Assembly: GCF_009882935.1 (NCBI RefSeq)
Contig: NZ_WTVA01000014.1
Location: 186,001-250,000 of the forward strand
Source: Sneathiella chungangensis
GTDB lineage: Bacteria > Pseudomonadota > Alphaproteobacteria > Sneathiellales > Sneathiellaceae
DNA length: 64,000 bases
Reading direction: 5' to 3'
Below the pieces are notes generated by a model. The model was not told the DNA's origin. It did no database searches and worked only from the letters and a program-made list of their open reading frames with translations. Position 1 is the first letter of the stretch. Each line of letters starts with the position of its first letter. Positions 20,416 to 32,433 of this stretch are shown here, piece after piece. The position numbers and the translations under genes are program-made.

Positions 20416-20659
20416 GGGCGCCTATACGACGTCCTTGGATGATTGCGATGTCATCTCCAATTCATCTTTCTAGAAGAGTGCTATCCAGAGACGCCGAAGC
20501 TTGAAATTCTTTCGCTTAGCAAAGCGATGCTTATACTAGGACAACGTCTATCGACCAGGAATTGATCTCGGTTCCTACAGTAAACAAACAGCGAAGATAC
20601 TCCCGACGCGGAACGCATCAATATATTCCCGCACCATGGGGTCGGCCGGTTGGGCTGAT

Positions 20660-21937
20660 TTACATGGTGTTTGGCAGCCAAAGAACCAGCGCAGGAAAGA
20701 AAACCAGCAACAGCACCACAAGGAAATGCGCCAGAATGTGAGGGATAACGCCGATAAACACATCCTCCAGCGGGACATTGGTATATCGCGAGACAACAAA
20801 GGCATTAATCCCGACCGGCGGCGTCACGAGGCCGATCTCGGCCAGGACGACAATCAACACACCGAACCAGACCGGATCGTATCCGAGATAAACGATCAGG
20901 GGCAGCATGATCGGGACAGTCAGTATCAGAATGGCAATCTGATCCAGAAACATTCCCAGTACCAGATAAATAAAGATGATCCCGATCAGGATAACCCAGG
21001 AGGGAAAGTCCAGGCCGCCAATCTGGCTGATAATCAGATTGGGTATCTGAGTGATTGTCAGGAAATAACCAAAGACCTGCGCCCCGATGATAATTGCGCC
21101 GATCATTGCGGTTGTGCGCAACGCGCGGTAAACAGCCTGCGTCAGCATCCCGAAATTCGTGTTACCCCGTCCCACGGCGATAAGCAGCGCCCCGAATGCT
21201 CCGATGGCGGAGGCTTCCGTGGGCGTGGCAATGCCAAGATAGATGGCGCCCGTGACGATCAGGAAAAGCAGCAGGAACAGGAGGGCGGCAACGGAATGGC
21301 TTTCCTTGGAAAATTTGTCTTCAACTTTGGGCGCCCAGGACGGACGCAACCATATCAATGTGAAGACGGTCAGAATAATCACCGTAAGGACCAACAACCC
21401 CGGTACAATACCGGCAATCAGCAGGACGGCAATACTCTCCCCACTGAGGAGGCCATACAGGATCAAGGCAATGCTGGGCGGAATGAGCATCGCAAGAGTA
21501 CCTGATATCGCGACAACGCCGGATGCGAACCGCGCGTCATAGCCATGCTTAATCATTGTCGGCACGGAGCTGGCGGAAAGTGTCGCGGCCGCAGCGGTAC
21601 TGGAGCCGGAGACCGCCCCAAACGCCGCGCCGGAAATAGCGGTTGCGATCGCAAGTCCGCCTGGCAAGCGGCGAACCCATCGGCCAATCAGCTCAAACAT
21701 CTCGTCCGCAACCCGGCTCACAATCATGAACTCCGCCATCAGAATAAACATCGGTATCGTGATGAGTTCATAACTTGAAACGGCCGTGCCGGGAGTGGTT
21801 TGCAGAATACCCAACACCAGGTTTGGCCCGCCGATCAGTAGCAGACCAATGGCCGCGGAGAGAAGTAAGGAGAATGCGACAGGCAATCCGATGACAAGGA
21901 GGACAATCAGTAATGCAATGGTGATTGCTGTCGTCAT
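20660..21937 (-). CDS. TRAP transporter large permease (DctM family)
   Basis: Inner-membrane channel subunit of 425 aa with about 12 helices. DctM features: GLPVAFSLLLSAAIGLLL, the conserved PMFILMAEFM segment, GGLAIATAISGAAFGAVSGSSTAAAATL, GTLAMLIPPSIALILYG, and EIGLVTPPVGINAFV near the C-terminus. Its ATG overlaps the DctQ stop by 4 bp. It is the last gene of an operon with CoA-transferases. No binding protein adjoins it; the DctP gene at 26574-27620 shares the operator of this operon and is the likely partner. Confidence 0.93.
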   Translation of the reverse strand: MTTAITIALLIVLLVIGLPVAFSLLLSAAIGLLLIGGPNLVLGILQTTPGTAVSSYELITIPMFILMAEFMIVSRVADEMFELIGRWVRRLPGGLAIATAISGAAFGAVSGSSTAAAATLSASSVPTMIKHGYDARFASGVVAISGTLAMLIPPSIALILYGLLSGESIAVLLIAGIVPGLLVLTVIILTVFTLIWLRPSWAPKVEDKFSKESHSVAALLFLLLFLIVTGAIYLGIATPTEASAIGAFGALLIAVGRGNTNFGMLTQAVYRALRTTAMIGAIIIGAQVFGYFLTITQIPNLIISQIGGLDFPSWVILIGIIFIYLVLGMFLDQIAILILTVPIMLPLIVYLGYDPVWFGVLIVVLAEIGLVTPPVGINAFVVSRYTNVPLEDVFIGVIPHILAHFLVVLLLVFFPALVLWLPNTM

Positions 21938-22470
21938 TGCGCATCTCCGAGTTGATCAGAGATCTTGTTCTTTGTATCCGCGCCGGACGCCACATACAGC
22001 CGCATTATGGAAACGAGAAGCATTCTGGCCGTGAGCAGGGTTAATCCGATTGAGATAATGATCGTCGATGTCCATAGCGGCCAGCTTATGCCCCCGGCGG
22101 TATATTCGCTGTTCCGCAGATTTTCCTGCACAACCAGATAGCTCATCCAGCTTGCCCCGGCCAAAACAACCGCTGTACAGGCGTAGGCCAGACCGAGTAG
22201 GAGCTGACCAAGACGGTCCGGCATCATTCGATGGAAAATTTCCACATAGAGATGTTCGTTTTTCTCCAGGGTATGTGAAACCGCGAAGAAAAAGGATCCA
22301 AGCATCAGATATCTGGTCAAGACCTCAAATGCCCAGGAAATCGGGGAACTGAACAGATACCGCATGACCACATCAGACACCATCACGATCATAATCGCGA
22401 CAAGGCAAATGGCGGCCCCGATCATCAACAATCGTTCTATATTAGAGAGGAAATTATTAAGCTGCCCCAT
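21934..22470 (-). CDS. TRAP transporter small permease (DctQ family)
   Basis: Membrane subunit of 178 aa with four helices (around residues 15-35, 50-70, 90-110 and 130-155). The DctQ pattern VMVSDVVMRYLFSSPISWAFEVL is clear. It starts after AAAGGATG and overlaps the DctM start. A basic/polar tail after residue 160 is cytoplasmic. Confidence 0.9.
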   Translation of the reverse strand: MGQLNNFLSNIERLLMIGAAICLVAIMIVMVSDVVMRYLFSSPISWAFEVLTRYLMLGSFFFAVSHTLEKNEHLYVEIFHRMMPDRLGQLLLGLAYACTAVVLAGASWMSYLVVQENLRNSEYTAGGISWPLWTSTIIISIGLTLLTARMLLVSIMRLYVASGADTKNKISDQLGDAQ

Positions 22471-22594
22471 TTCGCATCCTTTTCACGGATAGTCCGCCGA
22501 ACCGCTGTTCTTGATTTTTCTTGTCGTTGTCGTCAACGGGAGGAATCCACCCTAGTTCCAGTTTCTATAGCTAACTCTTTCCATTTCGCCTGTT

Positions 22595-23812
22595 TCAGAC
22601 TTGTTTGCCTGGAGCTGAAACAACTGCCTTTCTGCCTAGCTCCTCAATTTCTTGATCCGAAAAACCGAATTCTTCAAGTATCTCTTCACTGTGCTGACCC
22701 AACGCCGGAGGAGGGTATCTGTACGTGCAGGGTGTATCTGAAAGTTTCATCGGAAAACCGAATACTGAAAACGTACCCGCGTACGGATGCTCAATTTCCT
22801 GAATCATTTCCCGGTGACGCACCTGAGGATGTTTCATGACCTCCTCTACGGTGTTGACGGGAGCGAGGGGGACATCATTCTTTTCCATGATCGTCACCCA
22901 CTCCTGCACGGATTTGGTGAGGAAGCATTCCTGCATTATCGGAATCAAGGTGCCGCGATTTTTCACCCTATCCACGTTCGTGGCGTATAAAGGATTCGAA
23001 ATCAGGTTCTCCAGCCCCATTGCCTTCGCCGCCCGCTGCCAAATACGGTCGTTAAATGCCGCGAGGGAGACCCAACCGTCACTGGCCTCAAATGCCTGAT
23101 AGGGCACGACACTCGGATGTCCCGAGCCGGACTTTCCTGGAACGTCATTTGTCGCGCCAAATGCGGTCAGAAGATAGGAAAGGTAAGCCACCTGCCCGTC
23201 CAGCAGGGAGGTATCAACAAGTTGCCCCGTTCCGGTTATATTGCGGGCCTGCAATGCGGCCATGATCCCGAGCGAGGCAAACATACCCGCCGTCAAATCG
23301 CAGATACTAACGCCGGTACGAACGGGCCCGCCGTCAACCTCTCCGGTAACGCTCATCAATCCGCCAAATGCCTGCATATAGATGTCGGTTGCCGGTTTTG
23401 TCGCATATGGCCCCGACCGACCAAATCCGGTGATGGCGCAATAAATGAGCTTGGGATTAATTGCGCGGAGAGCTTCATATCCAATTCCCCAGCGGTCCAT
23501 CACGCCATGCCGGTAATTCTCGACCACAACATCCGCGGAAGTTACCATTTTACGGAAGACATCACGCCCCTCTTCTTTCCCGAGGTCCAGTACGATGCTT
23601 CTCTTGTTGCGGTTGGCGCTTACAAAATAGGTACTTTCTCCATTTTGAAAGGGCGGCCAGGCACGGCTGTCATCGCCCAGCCCTGGCGGCTCGATTTTTA
23701 TGATATCCGCCCCAAGATCTCCGAGCATCAAAGAGCAAAGTGGCCCGGCCAATGCCCGCCCTAAATCAAGGACCTTGACTCCCTGAAGCGGTTGTCGCGC
23801 CACATCAATCAT
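22595..23812 (-). CDS. CaiB/BaiF family (type III) CoA-transferase
   Basis: Cytoplasmic CoA-transferase of 405 aa. Family blocks: LQGVKVLDLGRALAGPLCS, LGADIIKIEPPG, NRNKRSIVLDLGKEEGR, YCAITGFGRSGPY and the presumed catalytic Asp near residue 174 in SICDLTAGMFAS. It overlaps the beta subunit of a two-subunit CoA-transferase by 8 bp, so both CoA-transferase types are made from one mRNA. Likely activates the acid brought in by the TRAP system encoded at the end of the operon. Confidence 0.92.
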   Translation of the reverse strand: MIDVARQPLQGVKVLDLGRALAGPLCSLMLGDLGADIIKIEPPGLGDDSRAWPPFQNGESTYFVSANRNKRSIVLDLGKEEGRDVFRKMVTSADVVVENYRHGVMDRWGIGYEALRAINPKLIYCAITGFGRSGPYATKPATDIYMQAFGGLMSVTGEVDGGPVRTGVSICDLTAGMFASLGIMAALQARNITGTGQLVDTSLLDGQVAYLSYLLTAFGATNDVPGKSGSGHPSVVPYQAFEASDGWVSLAAFNDRIWQRAAKAMGLENLISNPLYATNVDRVKNRGTLIPIMQECFLTKSVQEWVTIMEKNDVPLAPVNTVEEVMKHPQVRHREMIQEIEHPYAGTFSVFGFPMKLSDTPCTYRYPPPALGQHSEEILEEFGFSDQEIEELGRKAVVSAPGKQV

Positions 23813-24617
23813 TTCTTGCTCCCTTTAGATTCCGCAACACGCCTGACGGATCCACTCTTGAACGCAAGATCTCCAATGTCTCCGCATCCGGCAGAGCGGT
23901 CGTCGGCACCTCCTCCGGAACAATGATTTCGGCACCGGTATTATCCAGCACTTCTTCCACGGTGTGCCCGGGATGCACCGATCGCAACCGCATCCGTTTG
24001 GTGGTAGCACAAAAATCCATTGCGGCCATCGGGCTGAATACAAGCGCCGGCCCGCCGCCAACAAGACCAAGCGCTTCGCGATCGCCCGGCCCGCTGCCAT
24101 ATCCCATCGCCGTGACGTAATCGAGCTTGTTCACAAAGGATAGTTTGGAATGCTGCTGCATATAGATAAAATATCGCCGCGCGACCGAGCTTGCATAGGA
24201 GAGGCCCGCACCACCCGGCCCCTTCAGCTTCGGCGCCTTTATGTCCCCAATAGCGGTCATGTTCAGATTCCCGAAACTATCGACCTGCAGACCACCTGCG
24301 AAAAACCAATCTCGTGGCGTGTAGAAGACAGACATAAAATTCAAAACCGTCTCGGTTCCGGCATATATATTTCTATAATCCATCGTGGAATGAAATAGGG
24401 GCGCCGGCGCCTTCCCAACGCTATTTGCCACAAATCCGGCGGCGCTGGTAATGATCATCAGGTTCGGGGCATGCGTTAATTGAGCGAGACGCGCCGCCGC
24501 GAGGGGAATTTCACTACGCGCCCCTCCGGGTGACCCGATTTCTCCATCCCCCAGTTCCTTGCTCAATACGTACGCGGCAAGTTCCGGCCAGGCCACAGGT
24601 GAACTTTCAATCGACAT
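23805..24617 (-). CDS. Two-subunit (type I) CoA-transferase, beta subunit (GctB/IpdB-like)
   Basis: Cytoplasmic subunit of about 270 aa. Related to glutaconate CoA-transferase beta and to IpdB-like hydratase/ring-cleaving proteins. Visible blocks: GDGEIGSPGGARSEIPLAAARLAQ, SAAGFVANSVG, GGLQVDSFGNLNMTAIG (the glycine-rich GGLQxDxxGN motif) and a C-terminal VHPGHTVEEVLDNTGAEI. The frame opens seven codons earlier, but the ATG at 24617 follows GAAGG at proper spacing. It overlaps the alpha-subunit gene by 11 bp. Which of the two functions applies cannot be decided from sequence alone. Confidence 0.85.
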   Translation of the reverse strand: MSIESSPVAWPELAAYVLSKELGDGEIGSPGGARSEIPLAAARLAQLTHAPNLMIITSAAGFVANSVGKAPAPLFHSTMDYRNIYAGTETVLNFMSVFYTPRDWFFAGGLQVDSFGNLNMTAIGDIKAPKLKGPGGAGLSYASSVARRYFIYMQQHSKLSFVNKLDYVTAMGYGSGPGDREALGLVGGGPALVFSPMAAMDFCATTKRMRLRSVHPGHTVEEVLDNTGAEIIVPEEVPTTALPDAETLEILRSRVDPSGVLRNLKGARND

Positions 24618-25515
24618 AGGTTTTTGCCTTCGCTTCAATTAACGACTGTAGATTTACGTGCTTATCCAGGTAATGTTGGTGGCTTGGCACTGATAGGACG
24701 TGATCGTTTATATAGTCTGCTATCCCATTTTCGGATTTCGCTGCTTTCAGGTAATCGATGATTGCCGCTTCATTGAACTGATAGCTTCCATGAGAAGAAC
24801 AGGGATAGGCCCCGTAAGGCGCCTCGATCACATGATCGACCAACATGCAGGATATGTTGGTGCGGAAAGGGTCATTTGTGAAACTCGCATTTGGAACCAC
24901 CTCGTCGACGCTGGCGACTATTTTTCCGCCGCCTTGCCGCGTTGCTTCCGCGACCATCAAATCCGCAAATGAATAGCCCACATAGCGGAGGTTCCCATAT
25001 TTGTCGCCCGCAGCTGCGTGAAGAATCGCCAAATCCGGTTTCAATGCGGCAACTGCCGTCATCGGCTCGCCGGAGATATGATCCTTAACCAGTTTGATAT
25101 CCGGATTTAATCTATGCACGTCGGTACCGACACCTGCTTTTGCAATGCCAGACGGGAGTTTTCTGGCCGCCGCCTCAAGAGCTGCGAGAAGATGCGTCTC
25201 GTCACATTCCCATACGCTGATTTTGCCCTCACTCGTCGCCTTCCGAAAGCCCGGGGCCAACCCCAGATATTCAAACCCCATATACGGAACTCTCACTTCC
25301 GCGACACAGCCTGCGGAAATAAGCAAATCCACATCGATCGACGCCTGTGGAACGGAAACGACGACAAGATCCTTTACTTTCCGGCGGATAATCTCCCGCA
25401 CGAGGAACATGGGTTTATTATGAAATAATGACCCGCCTATAATCAAAGTCTGGCCGTCTTCCAGCCCCTCGAGCGCCAAATCGACTGAGCTTATTTTACT
25501 AGTGCGAGTGTCCAC
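24607..25515 (-). CDS. Two-subunit (type I) CoA-transferase, alpha subunit (GctA/IpdA-like), GTG start
   Basis: Partner subunit, 302 aa. CoA-transferase alpha features: LEDGQTLIIGGSLFHNKPMFLVREI, VVVSVPQASIDVDLLISAG, MGFEYLGLAPGFRKA, and HAAAGDKYGNLRYVG. Translation begins at GTG (25513-25515) with GGGAGA six bases upstream; no ATG fits. First gene of the operon, divergent from the IclR regulator, with the shared palindrome 37 bp upstream of the start. Confidence 0.86.
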   Translation of the reverse strand: MDTRTSKISSVDLALEGLEDGQTLIIGGSLFHNKPMFLVREIIRRKVKDLVVVSVPQASIDVDLLISAGCVAEVRVPYMGFEYLGLAPGFRKATSEGKISVWECDETHLLAALEAAARKLPSGIAKAGVGTDVHRLNPDIKLVKDHISGEPMTAVAALKPDLAILHAAAGDKYGNLRYVGYSFADLMVAEATRQGGGKIVASVDEVVPNASFTNDPFRTNISCMLVDHVIEAPYGAYPCSSHGSYQFNEAAIIDYLKAAKSENGIADYINDHVLSVPSHQHYLDKHVNLQSLIEAKAKTYVD

Positions 25516-25551
25516 AAATTTCTCCCAAGAGGTAATTTATCTGGCCTTTTT

Positions 25552-25567
25552 GTTCTATATATAGAAC
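25552..25567. promoter_or_regulatory. Palindromic operator, copy 1 (upstream of the CoA-transferase/TRAP operon)
   Basis: GTTCTATATATAGAAC, a perfect 16-bp palindrome between the IclR gene and the divergent CoA-transferase operon. An identical palindrome stands at 27637-27652 before the TRAP binding-protein gene, and similarity extends into both flanks. The central TATATA could overlap a -10 element. It is the obvious candidate site for the neighbouring IclR-type protein. Confidence 0.75.
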
Positions 25568-25689
25568 TATGATCTATATACAATACAAATATCACTGCCT
25601 GGGAAGGCCGTCAACTGATCCATCGATAATTTTGTTGCTCAAGCAGCGTGCGGAAGTTATGCGTATTCTTGGGCTTACTGGAGAAACGT

Positions 25690-26484
25690 ATGTCGTACAA
25701 AGAAGCTGATGAGACTAAACGTTATTCTGTACCGGCAGTTGAACGAACAATCCGGATTTTTCATTACCTGAAAGCAAACCGGCGAGCATCCGGCGCAGAA
25801 ATCGCGAAAGATCTCAATTTAACCAGAAGTAATTGTTACGCTATATTAAAAACTCTTCAGCTTCATGGTTTCGTTCTATTTGATACTGATTCAAAAAAGT
25901 ATTCCTTGGGACCAATTTTCCTTGAGTTTGTCCGAACTATTGTACAGGACCTAAGCCTGATACATGTATCGCGACCACATCTACAGAAATTTGTGGAAAA
26001 TACGGGCTTAAGCGTCGTGCTTGAACAGCGTGTAAATTTCAACCGGTTACTGGTGATTGACAGGCAGGATTGTGCGGATGATGTGCGCGTCATTATTTCG
26101 ATAGGCACAAGAATTCCGATAACCCATAGTGCCTCCGGAAGGGCGCTGCTCGCCTATCTGCCTTCCAAGGAAGCCGAGGAACTCGTCAAATCGGTATCTG
26201 TTATTCCGCTAACGGCAAAAACAATTACCAATCCAGCAGATATTATGGATGATCTCAAAAATATTCGTGCGCGTGGATACGCGGTTGGACATGGAGAAAA
26301 TTTGGAGGGCATTGACGCCATCGCCGCCCCGATTTTTGATGTAACGGGAGAGCCCATTGGTGTTGTCGCCTGCGCGGCTACATCCTCCACACTCAGCAAC
26401 GGCCCTCTTGACCATTTCGGGAATAAGCTGCGCAGTACGGCAGATGAAATCTCCGTCGTGCTCGGCGGCAAGCAACCGGGCTAG
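25690..26484 (+). CDS. IclR-family transcriptional regulator
   Basis: DNA-binding regulator of 264 aa. An N-terminal winged helix (PAVERTIRIFHYLKANRRASGAEIAKDLNLTRSN) is followed by the IclR ligand domain (HSASGRALLAYLP, GYAVGHGENLEGIDAIAAPIFD). The frame is open 14 codons further up, but GGAGA precedes the ATG at 25690. Divergent from the CoA-transferase/TRAP operon and convergent with the TRAP binding-protein gene, whose promoters share a palindrome; it most likely controls both. Confidence 0.92.
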   Translation: MSYKEADETKRYSVPAVERTIRIFHYLKANRRASGAEIAKDLNLTRSNCYAILKTLQLHGFVLFDTDSKKYSLGPIFLEFVRTIVQDLSLIHVSRPHLQKFVENTGLSVVLEQRVNFNRLLVIDRQDCADDVRVIISIGTRIPITHSASGRALLAYLPSKEAEELVKSVSVIPLTAKTITNPADIMDDLKNIRARGYAVGHGENLEGIDAIAAPIFDVTGEPIGVVACAATSSTLSNGPLDHFGNKLRSTADEISVVLGGKQPG

Positions 26485-26532
26485 CGCGAGCGTACTACAA
26501 TCAAGTGACCTGTTTGGCGCAGATTCTGATAA

Positions 26533-26575
26533 TGGGGAACGGGACAGTATACCGGCCCGTTCCCCAATTTTTATT
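26533..26575 (+). terminator. Strong intrinsic terminator after the IclR gene
   Basis: TGGGGAACGGG pairs with CCCGTTCCCCA (11-bp perfect stem, 12-nt loop), followed by AATTTTTATT. It lies between the convergent IclR and TRAP binding-protein genes and overlaps the stop of the latter at its right edge. The U-tract is on the plus strand. Confidence 0.85.
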
Positions 26576-27620
26576 ACTCGTATTTAGACACAGCGCTACG
26601 GAACTGCTCAATGACTTCCTTCGCCGGTTTCCCTCTTTCTTCCAGAACGGACGTCCAGTTAGTAATCACCGGTTCCAGCTCCTTGTTTAGGGCTGCGGCT
26701 TCCTCACCTTCAATCACATGGATTTTGGCACCGCCACCTTTCAGTGCCTCCAGTGCTTCAGAGTTCATTCTGTCGCTGTAGCTGCACAGAGCATTTCCGG
26801 CAAACGCAGCGGCCTCTGTCAACGCGTCCTGGATTTCCTTATCCAAACTGTTCCATTTTTTTGAGGTCATGCCATATGTGACTGTTGTGCTACCCAGGTT
26901 TACACCAGTCAGTCCATATTTCATAAGTTCATCAAGACTGTATGGAGGCAGCCCGATATAGGCAAGCATGGCGCCATCCAGTGTTCCGCGCTGAACCGCT
27001 TCAAAAATTTCAGGCCCGCTAAGCCGAATAGGCGTTGCCCCCAGCTTTGTCAGCGTTTCATGCTTCGCATCTCCAGACGCATAAAGCTTCAGCCCTGCGA
27101 GATCCTTATAGGAGTTCAGTTCTTTCTCAGACGTCATGACGGTATAAGGAGCCAACATATTGGTATAAAGCACATGAAAGCCCTGTGGCTTGAACTCCTG
27201 CTCATAAAGAATTCCGCCGGGTTTCGTCAAATCCGCCAGTGCCTGCGATCCGGAGCACGCGGTATTGAACATACCGGGCAGTTCACCTGCGGCGGAAAGC
27301 GGTAGTTTTTCCGGAACATATGCTGGAATGATAACTCCGATATCCGCGACACCGGCACTCGTGAGGCTCATGATATCTTTGGCTTTACCCAGTTGCTGCG
27401 CTGGAAAATACTGGAACTCAATGCGCCCGTTACTCAGCTCGACTGCCTTGTCCATCCATTTCTGGGTGCCTTCAAGCAGAATGTAATGAGTAGTCGGAAA
27501 TATGTCGGCAACCTTGAAAATAACCTTGTCTTCGGCAATTGCAGCCGAAGAAGCCAAACAACCAAGAAATCCTGTTCCCAAGACAAAAAGCCGCGACATT
27601 GTCTTTAATTTTTTTATCAT
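26574..27620 (-). CDS. TRAP transporter substrate-binding protein (DctP family)
   Basis: Periplasmic binding protein of 348 aa with a signal peptide (VLGTGFLGCLASSAAIAED, cleavage near residue 29). DctP features: FKVADIFPTTHYILLEGTQKWMD, GRIEFQYFPAQQLGKAKD, the conserved Arg/Ser region LGATPIRLSGPEIFEAVQRGTLDGA and a C-terminal helix pair. Start follows AGGAGAGGG. It stands alone as a unit with the palindromic operator 17 bp upstream of its ATG. Likely partner of DctQM at 20660-22470. Confidence 0.92.
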   Translation of the reverse strand: MIKKLKTMSRLFVLGTGFLGCLASSAAIAEDKVIFKVADIFPTTHYILLEGTQKWMDKAVELSNGRIEFQYFPAQQLGKAKDIMSLTSAGVADIGVIIPAYVPEKLPLSAAGELPGMFNTACSGSQALADLTKPGGILYEQEFKPQGFHVLYTNMLAPYTVMTSEKELNSYKDLAGLKLYASGDAKHETLTKLGATPIRLSGPEIFEAVQRGTLDGAMLAYIGLPPYSLDELMKYGLTGVNLGSTTVTYGMTSKKWNSLDKEIQDALTEAAAFAGNALCSYSDRMNSEALEALKGGGAKIHVIEGEEAAALNKELEPVITNWTSVLEERGKPAKEVIEQFRSAVSKYE

Positions 27621-27636
27621 TCATCCCTCTCCTATT

Positions 27637-27652
27637 GTTCTATATATAGAAC
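27637..27652. promoter_or_regulatory. Palindromic operator, copy 2 (upstream of the TRAP binding-protein gene)
   Basis: GTTCTATATATAGAAC, identical to the site at 25552-25567, 17 bp upstream of the binding-protein start codon. In the direction of transcription both copies are preceded by AGAnCATn and followed by AAnA. Binding here would block a promoter whose -10 falls in the TATATA core. Confidence 0.75.
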
Positions 27653-28028
27653 GATGTTCTCTCAGTACAACATATCATAATAATCTTGTCCACCACTCTT
27701 TAGGGATTTCTGGCTTACATCCATTTTTTGTGAGTACCCGCCCAGCAGCATAGGCTGGGTGGTCGCCATGCGATCTCACCAGATCAAATGACGTAAAAAA
27801 GTGCCATACCCCTGTCAGGTAAGGAGAGTCTAAGATGGGAGAGATTATTGGCAGATGCCTGACGGCTGCAAACGTCGCAGGCGCCCGCTCTTTTCTCTGG
27901 AACGGAAGCCATCCACATATCGCGATACTGTGGATCCAGGAATGTGCAGAGAAACTCCATGACCGCAAATAATGCGGCCATGGAAATAGACAGAATTTGT
28001 TCAGGATCTTCTAAAAGCGTTATCCCGG
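27653..28028. other. Intergenic stretch between two TRAP binding-protein genes
   Basis: No recognisable gene. Two overlapping minus-strand open frames (27675-27968 from a TTG, and 27784-27981 from an ATG) lack a convincing ribosome-binding site and match no family I know. They may be decayed sequence. The promoter of the 26574-27620 gene is at the left end. Confidence 0.4.
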
Positions 28029-28991
28029 CTACTTTATCTGGCCGACTTCCTTATAAAACTTCACCGCACCCGGATGATAGGGCACCGGGTTTTCCTGGAC
28101 CATCTTGTCGGGCTGAAAACGATTGAAGGCGCCAAATGCTTCAGCGAGTGACTTTTTATTTTCATACATCGTTTTGGTCAGCTGGTAGACAACATCGTCA
28201 GAAACATCAGCTCCCGTCAGGACATAAAAATCCACCTCGATCATATAGGTGGGGCTGTCCACAACACCTGTTTTGCTCTTATCAGGCTCCATGCTGGCAA
28301 TACGGGCAGACGGCAGATTTTTTGAGACAGCGGCGCGCGCTTCCGGCGAGTCGACCAATGAAATATAGCGCCAGCCGTCTTTCATGGTCGCCATGGCCTT
28401 TTTACCAACGCCGGCATTCATGGGTATGAGAGCCGCATCCACCTTACCATCTGCCATCGCATTAATCGCGGAGACGAAATTCGGCATGGGGACTTTTTTG
28501 GCATCCTCTATGGTCAATCCCCCTGTCGCAAGGGCGGCGTTGGAGTAGTAATGAAATGTGCGACCGGAGTTATACCCCGAAGGAAGACGTGCGCCCTTTA
28601 AATCCGATACTGTTTTGAAAGGGGAATTTGTCGGCACCGCAAAGGACGTTTGCGTTGCGATGGCAACCCCGACAAGCCGCAGATTGGTATTGGCATGGCC
28701 CTCAAAGCTCCCGATACCTTCATAGGCAAACGCTGCCTCGCCGCCGTTGGCAAAGCCGAAGGCGAGTTTCCCGGTATTGATAAGCGGGATATAGGTTGAA
28801 GAGCCGGCATAGGGCGCAACCCGGTACTGCTCCCCTGTTTTCTCAACCATCACTTTGGAGATTGCGGCGCCCATGGAATAGAACAGGGATCCCTGTTGAT
28901 TTGTCCCCATTGAATAGGTTTCCGCCTGTACAGCCCCGGCGGTTGCGCAGCTCAATGCGATGCCGATTGCGAACGCGATTAGTCTTTTCAT
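28029..28991 (-). CDS. TAXI-family TRAP transporter solute-binding protein
   Basis: Periplasmic binding protein of 320 aa with a signal peptide (AFAIGIALSCATAGAVQAE, cleavage near residue 24). The TAXI family is recognised from YSMGTNQQGSLFYSMGAAISKVM, the ATQTSFAVPTNSPFKTVSDLKGARLPSG block and the end YHPGAVKFYKEVGQ. Ribosome-binding site AAGGAGA. It follows a fused TRAP permease on the same strand, the usual TAXI arrangement. TAXI proteins bind carboxylates or amino acids such as glutamate; here the ligand is unknown. Confidence 0.92.
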   Translation of the reverse strand: MKRLIAFAIGIALSCATAGAVQAETYSMGTNQQGSLFYSMGAAISKVMVEKTGEQYRVAPYAGSSTYIPLINTGKLAFGFANGGEAAFAYEGIGSFEGHANTNLRLVGVAIATQTSFAVPTNSPFKTVSDLKGARLPSGYNSGRTFHYYSNAALATGGLTIEDAKKVPMPNFVSAINAMADGKVDAALIPMNAGVGKKAMATMKDGWRYISLVDSPEARAAVSKNLPSARIASMEPDKSKTGVVDSPTYMIEVDFYVLTGADVSDDVVYQLTKTMYENKKSLAEAFGAFNRFQPDKMVQENPVPYHPGAVKFYKEVGQIK

Positions 28992-29015: not shown

Positions 29016-30839
29016 TTATCGGATTAGTTGGCCTTTATTGGAAATGTGGGTCCATGTCAGATAGATACTGCCGAAGATGACAGCAGACATTACAACCGCG
29101 ACGCCGCCAAAAGCGATTTTTACCGGAATCAGGGCTATCACTCCCAGAAGCAGAAGCAATAGCCGTCCCAACAAACTTTGCCGCTTTGAAAAATAGCCGA
29201 CGACGGCGATTGAAATGAAATAAACGCCAACAAGGGCTGTTGCGCCACTCCACAGGATTTCCGTAACCTTGCCCTCCATTAGCAGGGTGGGACTGAAGAC
29301 AAACAGAACTGGAACGACATAGGCAAGCCACCCCATTTTCATGGCCTCGAAACCCGTTCGCATGGGGCTCGCGCCGCTTATCGTCGCCGCCGAGAAGGCT
29401 GCCAGCGCGATAGGGGGCGTGATCATCGACATCATTCCGAAATACAGAATGAACATATGCGCGGCCAAAGGCTCAATGCCCGTTTCAATGAGAGAAGGCG
29501 CCACGAGAGCCGCCAGAAGAACATAGACACCGGAGGTCGGCATGCCCATTCCGAGCAAAATACAAATTCCGGCAGATACCAGCAATAAGGCGGCGATGTG
29601 TGTGCCCCCCAGTTCGACAAGAGCGAGCGTAAGAACGAACCCGCCCCCGGACAAATTCAGCAAACCAATAACAAAGCCTGCGCCTGCAACGATAAGTGTA
29701 AGTTCCACCAGCGATTTGCCGGTCTCTGGAAAACAATCCAGTAGCCCTCTAATGGTAAGCCGGCTCCCCCGGTATTCTCGGATACTCCCTAATACGATAG
29801 CGGTGACACCGCCATATAGAGCCGCCAACTCGGCCGACGCACGAAATTCGAACATCGCCGTCAATAAGACGACAAACGGTATTATCAGATGCCAGCCTTC
29901 TTTCAGCACCGTCTTGACGGATCGCACTTCCTTTTCCGCCGCCGAAATGGAATCGCGTGCAGCAATAAGATCCACCTGAATAAAGACTGAAACATAATAG
30001 AGCAGTGCCGGCACGATGGCGGCGATGACCACATCGGAATAGGGAATCTCCAATGATTGCGCCATCAGAAAAGCAGCCGCGCCCATTATGGGCGGCATCA
30101 ACTGACCGCCCGTAGACGCTATGGTCTCAATCGCGCCGGACTGGCTCGAGGAATAGCCCGATCTTTTCATAAGCGGAATTGTCATAACGCCCGTTGTGAC
30201 GACGTTGGAAATAGCGCTTCCTGAGATAGATCCGAAGAGAGCCGACGCGATGATAGATATTTTCGCCGCCCCTCCGCGCTGCTTGCCCATCGCAGACATT
30301 GCAAGATCAATGAAGAACTCACCGCAACCTGTTTTTACCAGCAATTTTCCAAAAAAGATGAAAACCACGACAATCGTCGCCACAACGCTGAGCGGCGTTC
30401 CCAACATCGCATTGGGATCAAAGGCGAGATATACCAGAATTTCCGGGAGAGTGGACTGCGATGCAGTAAGTGGCGTTGGCAATAGATGACCGGTCAGACT
30501 ATAGACGCCAAGCAGGCCAATTATGAGCAAAAACACCCAGCCCCCTATTCGCCAGAGGGCATAGGCAGAGAAAGCCACGGCAACGGTCCCTAAAGCTTGC
30601 ATCTCCGGTGTCAGATAAGGAAAGTCAAATTGGAAACGCGTGTAATCAATGCCAATGAAGAAAAAGATGAAGAGGCTGACGAGCGACGCGAGCAGAGAAA
30701 ATAGAGAAAACGCGTCCTTATTCCGTTGACCTACGAATGCAAGCGCAATTGATAGGCCCAGAATACAGGCAAGGAACTGCTCCCGTGCCACCTCCAGGCC
30801 GAGCAGCACCGGCGCCTGCACCGCCCAAAGAATGCTCAA
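29016..30839 (-). CDS. Fused TRAP transporter permease (DctQ-DctM fusion, TAXI-associated); start uncertain
   Basis: Polytopic inner-membrane protein of at least 607 aa with about 16-18 hydrophobic segments. The N-terminal third is DctQ-like. The DctM part shows GSISGSAISNVVTTGVMTIPLMKRSGY, GAIETIASTGGQLMPPIMGAAAFLMAQ and GMGMPTSGVYVLLAALVAPSL. The first conventional in-frame start is a TTG at 30839 without a ribosome-binding site. The same frame stays open upstream with hydrophobic family-like residues to a strong GGGGAGG at 30927-30933, with only ATC or ATA codons at start distance, so the true start may be near 30915-30923. Pairs with the TAXI protein downstream. Confidence 0.9.
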   Translation of the reverse strand: MSILWAVQAPVLLGLEVAREQFLACILGLSIALAFVGQRNKDAFSLFSLLASLVSLFIFFFIGIDYTRFQFDFPYLTPEMQALGTVAVAFSAYALWRIGGWVFLLIIGLLGVYSLTGHLLPTPLTASQSTLPEILVYLAFDPNAMLGTPLSVVATIVVVFIFFGKLLVKTGCGEFFIDLAMSAMGKQRGGAAKISIIASALFGSISGSAISNVVTTGVMTIPLMKRSGYSSSQSGAIETIASTGGQLMPPIMGAAAFLMAQSLEIPYSDVVIAAIVPALLYYVSVFIQVDLIAARDSISAAEKEVRSVKTVLKEGWHLIIPFVVLLTAMFEFRASAELAALYGGVTAIVLGSIREYRGSRLTIRGLLDCFPETGKSLVELTLIVAGAGFVIGLLNLSGGGFVLTLALVELGGTHIAALLLVSAGICILLGMGMPTSGVYVLLAALVAPSLIETGIEPLAAHMFILYFGMMSMITPPIALAAFSAATISGASPMRTGFEAMKMGWLAYVVPVLFVFSPTLLMEGKVTEILWSGATALVGVYFISIAVVGYFSKRQSLLGRLLLLLLGVIALIPVKIAFGGVAVVMSAVIFGSIYLTWTHISNKGQLIR

Positions 30840-31716: not shown

Positions 31717-32433
31717 ATGGCGAAATTGCTCACCAACGAAAAGGAAAACGGGAAACATTCCTCAGGCCAGGTCTCGACACTCGCGACTTCTGTTTATGAT
31801 CGCATCCGGATGGATATTGTCAGTGGCGCGCTGAAGCCCGGTAAAAAGCTCAGGACAGATGAATTGCGTCTTCGCTATGAAGCCGGAAACAGCCCAATTC
31901 GAGAAGCGCTCAACCGCCTGTCCTCCGACGGGTTCGTCGTTCGGGAAGAACAGCGGGGGTTTTCTGTTGCCGCCATCAGTAAAGTTGAATTACAGGAGCT
32001 CGTAAAAACGCGATGCTGGCTTGAAGAAACCGCCCTTCGTCAGTCGATCGAAAATGGCGACAGTGAGTGGGAGGAGCGGCTTGTTCTGGCGCATCACAGA
32101 TTGTCGCGCGTTCCTCGTCTCATTGACCCGAAAAGCGCCGCGCGCAATGCCGAATGGGATAGATTGCATCGGGAGTTTCATATGGCGTTGATCGCCGCCT
32201 GCGGATCTCGTCTGCTGCTGGGGTTTTGCGAGCAGCTCCATGATCAATCCGATCGCTATCGCCAGCTTGCAGTCGCCGCAAGCTATCCGGCCCGAGACCC
32301 AATGGACGAACATGAAGCGATTTACCTGGCCGCGATTGATCGCGACGCCGATAAAGCCGTGGATTTACTGTTGAACCATTATCAGAAGACAGCAAAAATT
32401 ATCGAGGAATCAGATCTGTCCTTTGATATGTAA
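31717..32433 (+). CDS. GntR-family transcriptional regulator, FCD subfamily
   Basis: Regulator of 238 aa. The winged helix (TSVYDRIRMDIVSGALKPGKKLRTDELRLRYEAGNSPIREALNRLSSDGFV) is followed by an all-helical FCD ligand domain with its metal-binding pattern (EWDRLHREFHMALIAACGS, HEAIYLAAIDRDADKAVDLL). GGAG precedes the ATG. Sits between the HbpS/TAXI genes and the FAH-family gene and probably controls them in response to an organic acid. Confidence 0.92.
   Translation: MAKLLTNEKENGKHSSGQVSTLATSVYDRIRMDIVSGALKPGKKLRTDELRLRYEAGNSPIREALNRLSSDGFVVREEQRGFSVAAISKVELQELVKTRCWLEETALRQSIENGDSEWEERLVLAHHRLSRVPRLIDPKSAARNAEWDRLHREFHMALIAACGSRLLLGFCEQLHDQSDRYRQLAVAASYPARDPMDEHEAIYLAAIDRDADKAVDLLLNHYQKTAKIIEESDLSFDM

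Follow-up and report, generated by a model that had tools for sequence, protein, structure and literature searches.

The locus examined here raises the question of whether two transcription units with a gene for an IclR-family regulator between them are governed as one regulon, and whether the TRAP components that they encode separately are parts of one transporter. The window, meaning the whole stretch of 64,000 nt that was analyzed, had been described in a first-pass annotation as containing a CoA-transferase and DctQM operon, a separate DctP gene, and the IclR gene between these units. The layout is as described, and the elements on which the argument depends are the following:

20659..27701, no strand assigned: conserved block that spans exactly the two operators and seven genes and forms one homologous segment of 7,051 bp with a second genome (G017), the flanks being unrelated
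20660..21937, minus strand: DctM, large TRAP membrane subunit (PF06808)
21934..22470, minus strand: DctQ, small TRAP membrane subunit (PF04290)
22595..23812, minus strand: class III (CaiB/Frc family) CoA-transferase (PF02515, E 7.7e-137)
23805..24638, minus strand: CoA_trans beta subunit, GctB/IpdB-like (PF01144; alignment to 1poi_B)
24607..25515, minus strand: CoA_trans alpha subunit, IpdA/GctA-like, first gene of the operon (PF01144; best solved relative 6co6_A)
25552..25574, minus strand: putative operator 1, a perfect 16-bp palindrome (25552-25567) with a third half-site
25690..26484, plus strand: IclR-family regulator, 264 aa from an ATG (Pfam HTH_IclR PF09339 and IclR_C PF01614 over their cut-offs)
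26574..27620, minus strand: DctP, TRAP substrate-binding protein (PF03480)
27637..27659, minus strand: putative operator 2, the palindrome (27637-27652) with a third half-site

A longer open reading frame for the IclR protein is possible from a GTG at 25648. The block holds one each of DctP, DctQ, and DctM, all with Pfam matches over the cut-offs, and four genes separate dctP from dctQM. Immediately beyond dctP, and unmentioned in the first-pass annotation, are genes for a TRAP binding protein of the TAXI type (28029-28991) and a long permease of the DctM type, with 607 aa (29016-30839), neither of which is among the open reading frames that the G017 locus lists. A second regulator near by in the window, a GntR/FCD protein (31717-32433), is ∼4 kb away and is absent from the open reading frames of at least 150 aa listed at the G017 locus. 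Base composition gives no signal of horizontal transfer, with a GC content of 51% in the block and 51% in the window.

A 16-bp palindrome before two neighboring units

The palindrome GTTCTATATATAGAAC had been reported before each of the two units, and both copies, at 25552-25567 and 27637-27652, are exact. Frequent occurrence throughout the genome had been named beforehand as the result that would count against a regulatory role. A scan of the assembly (15 contigs, 3,809,925 bases or 3.81 Mb, 99.98% complete) that allowed up to two mismatches finds GTTCTATATATAGAAC in only 2 places, both of them exact and each directly upstream of one unit. The reversed control pattern is also found in 2 places genome-wide, at mismatch numbers that the scan does not state. 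Within the window, 2 matches are present at up to three mismatches, as compared with 0.08 expected from shuffles. GTTCTATATATAGAAC is the only perfect palindrome of 12, 14, or 16 bp that is repeated in the window, and a repeated 16-bp palindrome occurs in 0 of 20 first-order Markov control sets. The half-site pattern GTTCTN6AGAAC, in turn, is found genome-wide in 3 places (both sites and C10:55012) as compared with 4 for its control, and the arms and their spacing are therefore at chance frequency. What is unusual is the combination of identity and position, in that the sole two exact copies precede two neighboring units.

Read on the minus strand, operator 1 is GATC-ATA-GTTC-TATATATA-GAAC, centered ∼44 nt upstream of the GTG of the first CoA_trans gene, and operator 2 is GAAC-ATC-GTTC-TATATATA-GAAC, centered ∼24 nt upstream of the dctP ATG. 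Similar flanks had been proposed on both sides of the palindrome. The one before it, AGAnCATn, is real and is kept in G017, whereas the one after it, AAnA, holds in the window but fails at the second G017 site. The AGAnCATn flank is an extra inverted half-site, which gives a 23-bp three-box pattern. The half-sites concerned are GATC-ATA-GTTC and GAAC-ATC-GTTC in the window and GATC-ATA-GTTC and GAAC-ATT-GTTC in G017. Without mismatches, the 23-bp form GANCATNGTTCTNTATANAGAAC occurs in exactly 2 places in the genome of the window (G000) and in 2 places in G017, and G012, G013, and G015 have no such place. When 3 mismatches are allowed, 5 further places are found over these five genomes, one of which is site 2 read the opposite way.

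G017, a genome of the same genus, holds the same seven genes, with identities to the window proteins of 87% for DctP, 87% for IclR, 89% for the alpha subunit, and 96% for the beta subunit. Its sites, which on its plus strand read GTTCTCTATATAGAAC and GTTCTATATACAGAAC, stand before the same two units. The counterpart of operator 1 is located at L011:7446-7461 and that of operator 2 at L011:9515-9530, each with one central change. When the two window sites and the two G017 sites are aligned, 21 of the 25 columns within the operator (columns 26-50) are invariant, as compared with 8 of 25 before it and 1 of 21 after it, a measure of conservation that is drawn from one other genome.

An origin of the palindromes by chance, or as leftovers of a promoter duplication with no regulatory role, is very nearly negligible in our estimation. 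The half-site pattern does not exceed its control in frequency and a few letters are common to the flanks of the two sites, as such an origin would allow, but an exact 16-bp repeat at two promoters, of a kind seen in none of the control sets, argues against it. So does the retention of both sites in G017 with central changes only, while the flanks of one site are unlike those of the other. Folding of the operon site gave a z of −1.78 and no strong structure besides the AT palindrome, and a role as a terminator or RNA element was set aside for this reason.

Fit of the sites and the regulator to the IclR family

The survey of IclR-family regulators by Suvorova and Gelfand (2021; PMC8222616), of which a part was available to us, gives the motif NGTYCRAW4TYGRACN for group 1 subgroup iv. 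The window sites agree with this motif in 14 of the 16 specified positions and the G017 sites in 13 of 16. GTYC and GRAC arms that are 8 bp apart around an A/T-rich center are present at both window sites (GTTC-TATATATA-GAAC), whereas the symmetric R/Y pair beside the arms is replaced by T and A at both. The same source ties even-length motifs to Pro1, Ala/Pro2, Ser/Glu30, and Ala/Asn33 of the HTH, and further ties Arg28 to G at motif position 8 and Tyr32 to G/C at motif position 10. With positions assigned by alignment to TM0065 (1mkm), the window IclR has Pro1, Ala2, Arg28, and Ala33, which fit the published preferences, and Asn30, which does not; its Tyr32 faces T, against the published preference for G/C. 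Only the window IclR combines Pro1, Ala2, and Ala33 among the nine IclR_C proteins of the genome. Its recognition helix is identical in G017 and the HTH reading head is unchanged.

Most IclR-family sites in PMC8222616 lie 20-80 nt before the start codon, with a peak at 22; among its 181 IclR regulogs, 20 combine AtoD with AtoA (COG1788/COG2057), and co-occurrence with DctPQM is named. The window resembles the group 1 catabolic regulons described there in having a local IclR gene and a small regulon of transporter and CoA-transferase genes, and likewise in its GTTC/GAAC arms, in centers that lie 20-80 nt before the start, and in the HTH residues of an even-length motif; it is unlike them in the T/A beside the arms. 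No member with the exact window site is seen in the available part of that survey, and a literature search returned no paper that joins at least four of the five elements IclR, CoA-transferase, TRAP transporter, DctP, and three-box.

The third half-site, GAnC-N3-GTTC, is present at 2 of 2 sites in each genome (G000 and G017). Three-box sites are reported in PMC8222616 for 32 orthologous groups, with PcaU, PobR, and HmgR named, and as in those operators the three half-sites alternate in direction at both places. In contrast to those operators as the available part describes them, the window has spacings of 3 and 8 bp that follow no single register, and the outer box at the operon site is GATC, with 3 of 4 letters in agreement. 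Because the 3-bp and 8-bp spacings match group 2 and group 1 in different registers, the three-box assignment is a near match.

The regulator that reads these sites could in principle be encoded elsewhere, since binding by the IclR protein is a prediction from sequence, and the GntR/FCD gene at 31717-32433 is 4 kb away. A LexA-like protein would be a second candidate, as the LexA half-site of alphaproteobacteria likewise reads GTTC. LexA boxes, however, are made of direct repeats, and GTTCTN6AGAAC has at most 3 genomic occurrences. G017 keeps both sites, yet no GntR/FCD protein is found among the open reading frames of at least 150 aa listed at its locus, and the IclR protein of the block has an HTH that suits a site of even length. 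We consider either assignment quite improbable. The conserved block contains no regulator besides IclR, the one regulator that both loci have in common. The sites unique to the two promoters, their conservation in G017, and an IclR-like motif and HTH with two misfits together support the earlier proposal that a single IclR protein would control both units.

The separated DctP and its membrane subunits

It had also been proposed that DctP and the distant DctQM form one transporter. An inventory of the genome gave 22 matches to DctQ and 23 to DctP. In 21 cases a DctQ has its nearest DctP no more than 1.6 kb away, and the exception is the window DctQ, whose nearest DctP is that of the window at 4,263 bp (∼4.3 kb). 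Conversely, three of the 23 DctP have no DctQ within 1.6 kb. The DctP genes at L048 (C11:173433) and L044 (C11:955422) are without a DctQ within 100 kb on the contig. For the window DctM and DctQ alike, the nearest paralogs are those of systems 29 and 23, and for the window DctP they are 50 and 43, the partners of 29 and 23; the two complete transporters reached are therefore identical for all three proteins. The two remaining lone DctP lie closest to other systems. In distance-profile (mirror-tree) comparisons, the window DctP ranks second of 23 with DctM and with DctQ, and the other two orphans rank 14 and 22, although this method is too weak to be used by itself: of 19 control systems, it places the true partner of DctM first in 6 and among the three best in 11. 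Among its references, the DctM of system 15 was not recovered, and a wrong overlapping open reading frame stood for the DctQ of systems 15 and 34, which makes 1 of the 20 references in the DctQ comparison faulty.

Side-by-side DctPQM sets are found at L012 and L013 on contig C15 of G000, and these belong to the same P, Q, and M families, are the closest paralogs, and are adjoined by an IclR gene and CoA enzymes. The window differs from them in that four genes stand between P and QM and that P has Tyr in place of the conserved Arg. Translations of the CoA-linked genes at L012 and L013 read as an acyl-CoA dehydrogenase, a lyase-like protein, and a hydratase-like protein, and the arrangement recurs in the genome. 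A scan of both loci for similar palindromes found other inverted repeats in L012 and none like GTTCTATATATAGAAC.

Window positions 20659-27701 align to G017 as one continuous 7,051-bp segment at 80% identity, which runs from dctM to the dctP promoter, and the genes flanking the block differ between the two genomes on both sides. Upstream of dctP, similarity to G017 is strong for ∼65 bp and then absent. A search of 25 genomes of the order found the alpha subunit in 2, both of them among the 24 that belong to the same genus, of which several are incomplete. A close relative of DctP is found in G017 only among 142 relatives searched (the window genome included), three other genomes giving matches of 34-36% only. 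At the chosen cut-off, a search of 385 genomes of the class found the IclR protein in that of the window alone. A contig search with the IclR protein found no relative, and its relatives on plasmids are all <60% identical, at ∼28-32% among the matches listed. On the basis of the G017 comparison and these searches, the block appears to behave as a single unit of inheritance.

A regulated orphan DctP that has a sensing role, or that works with another permease (the DctM-type one at 29016-30839 or a distant DctQM), seems to us improbable. Examples of orphan binding proteins exist, most of them from the TTT family according to the part of PMC5812351 available to us, three of the 23 DctP here lack a nearby DctQ, and the DctM-type permease is only 1.4 kb away. 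That permease, however, has its own TAXI protein, and neither is listed at the G017 locus, while DctP and DctQM are within one block in both genomes. Moreover, the nearest paralogs of the window DctP are partners of those of the window DctQ and DctM, and the other two orphans rank only 14 and 22 of 23. The inventory, the congruence of the paralogs, and co-inheritance as one block all point to the window DctP and DctQM as a predicted single transporter.

The DctP of the window lacks the conserved substrate-binding arginine, with Tyr where 20 of the 23 DctP of the genome have Arg (motif GLKLYASGD), and Tyr is found in G017 as well. The three exceptions are the window Tyr, Gln in P48, and Phe in P58, and two of these three proteins have no adjacent DctQ. 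PMC5812351, in the part available, reports the arginine in 96.8% of 6,142 sequences and describes it as the salt-bridge partner of the substrate carboxylate. Because Tyr replaces this near-universal carboxylate-binding residue, the substrate of the window DctP is uncertain.

CoA enzymes and the proposed regulon

The best solved relative of the alpha subunit is 6co6_A; we take 6co6 to be IpdA and 5mzw to be AibA, with the records naming CoA-transferase subunits. The alpha subunit keeps the glutamate of 6co6_A (ECDETH versus EMDEGM), a position at which 6coj_A has Ala, and GctA (1poi_A) and the AibA-like chain 5mzw_A are without glutamate at that column. The beta subunit is closest to GctB (1poi_B), and its TSAAG aligns with VESG, such that the GctB glutamate, which is presumably catalytic, is absent. 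The pair therefore has the alpha glutamate of an IpdAB-like hydrolase, the residue altered in 6coj, and lacks the beta catalytic glutamate of a class I glutaconate-type CoA-transferase. IpdAB is described in the available part of PMC5380842 as a COCHEA-CoA hydrolase. Given this activity, the retained IpdA glutamate, and the missing GctB one, the pair may hydrolyze a CoA thioester, and the class III enzyme may be the true CoA-transferase. As with IpdAB and GctAB, the latter a glutaconate CoA-transferase, the pair is a heterodimer of two PF01144 subunits, with alpha nearest IpdA and beta nearest GctB. It is unlike them in being adjoined by a class III CoA-transferase and in keeping the IpdA-type glutamate and not the GctB-type one.

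The combination of alpha, beta, and class III genes recurs outside the window, with plasmids of Rhodococcus, Variovorax, and Azospirillum among the examples. With the CoA_trans beta alignment as the query, the best 80 loci (the closest 48% identical) and four plasmid loci gave 84 loci, 12 of which contain a relative of the class III enzyme. None of the 84 has IclR, DctP, DctQ, and DctM together, in a content check by tblastn with the window's own proteins that would miss diverged DctP and DctQ.

Site 1 is common to the divergent CoA-enzyme/dctQM operon and iclR, and since it lies between the two, autoregulation of iclR is likely. The IclR protein, encoded between the two units, most likely binds both operators as a repressor, with operator 1 over the CoA-enzyme/dctQM promoter and also facing iclR, and operator 2 over the dctP promoter. 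Release of IclR would come from a ligand, for which the imported compound or its CoA product is the probable candidate; the binding protein, the membrane subunits, and the CoA enzymes would then rise together and DctP would feed DctQM. We infer from the sequence the binding of IclR, repression over activation, the ligand, the physical assembly of DctP with DctQM, and the role of TATATA in the center of the palindrome as a −10 element. A consensus scan for a sigma-70-like promoter found none at either site, and the placement of a repressor over the promoter is therefore argued from position.

The IclR family has both activators and repressors, and PcaU and PobR are activators. That co-regulation is right and that the window IclR is an activator like these two is an unlikely reading, but one that we take seriously. 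The three-box sites named in the available part of PMC8222616 include those of PcaU and PobR, and a poor match to the promoter consensus, as seen at both sites, is what an activated promoter might show. Judged by position, however, centers at about −44 and −24 from the start codons would leave scant room for an activator site upstream, and the AT-rich center could itself be the −10 element. The whole model with IclR as the repressor, in which a seven-gene catabolic module has one IclR-family regulator and two putative operators and DctP feeds DctQM, is in our judgment very probable.

A more specific and rather doubtful proposal is that the block is an uptake-and-ring-opening cassette, in which the arginine-less DctP would take up an unusual substrate, the class III enzyme would activate it, and the IpdAB-like pair would open it, all under a three-box IclR switch. 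If so, the substrate would perhaps be a cyclic acid that is held otherwise, or a non-carboxylate, and the three-box spacing would be one that the available part of PMC8222616 does not describe. The arginine ties most TRAP binding proteins to simple carboxylates, and its absence, together with the non-transferase signature, makes the substrate worth finding.

In kind, the locus is an ordinary small IclR catabolic regulon of a CoA-linked uptake module, with the TRAP binding protein in a separate unit. It provides a defined and testable regulon, and the assignment of a separated binding protein to its probable membrane partner would aid the annotation of the TRAP systems of this genome, with its 22 matches to DctQ and 23 to DctP.
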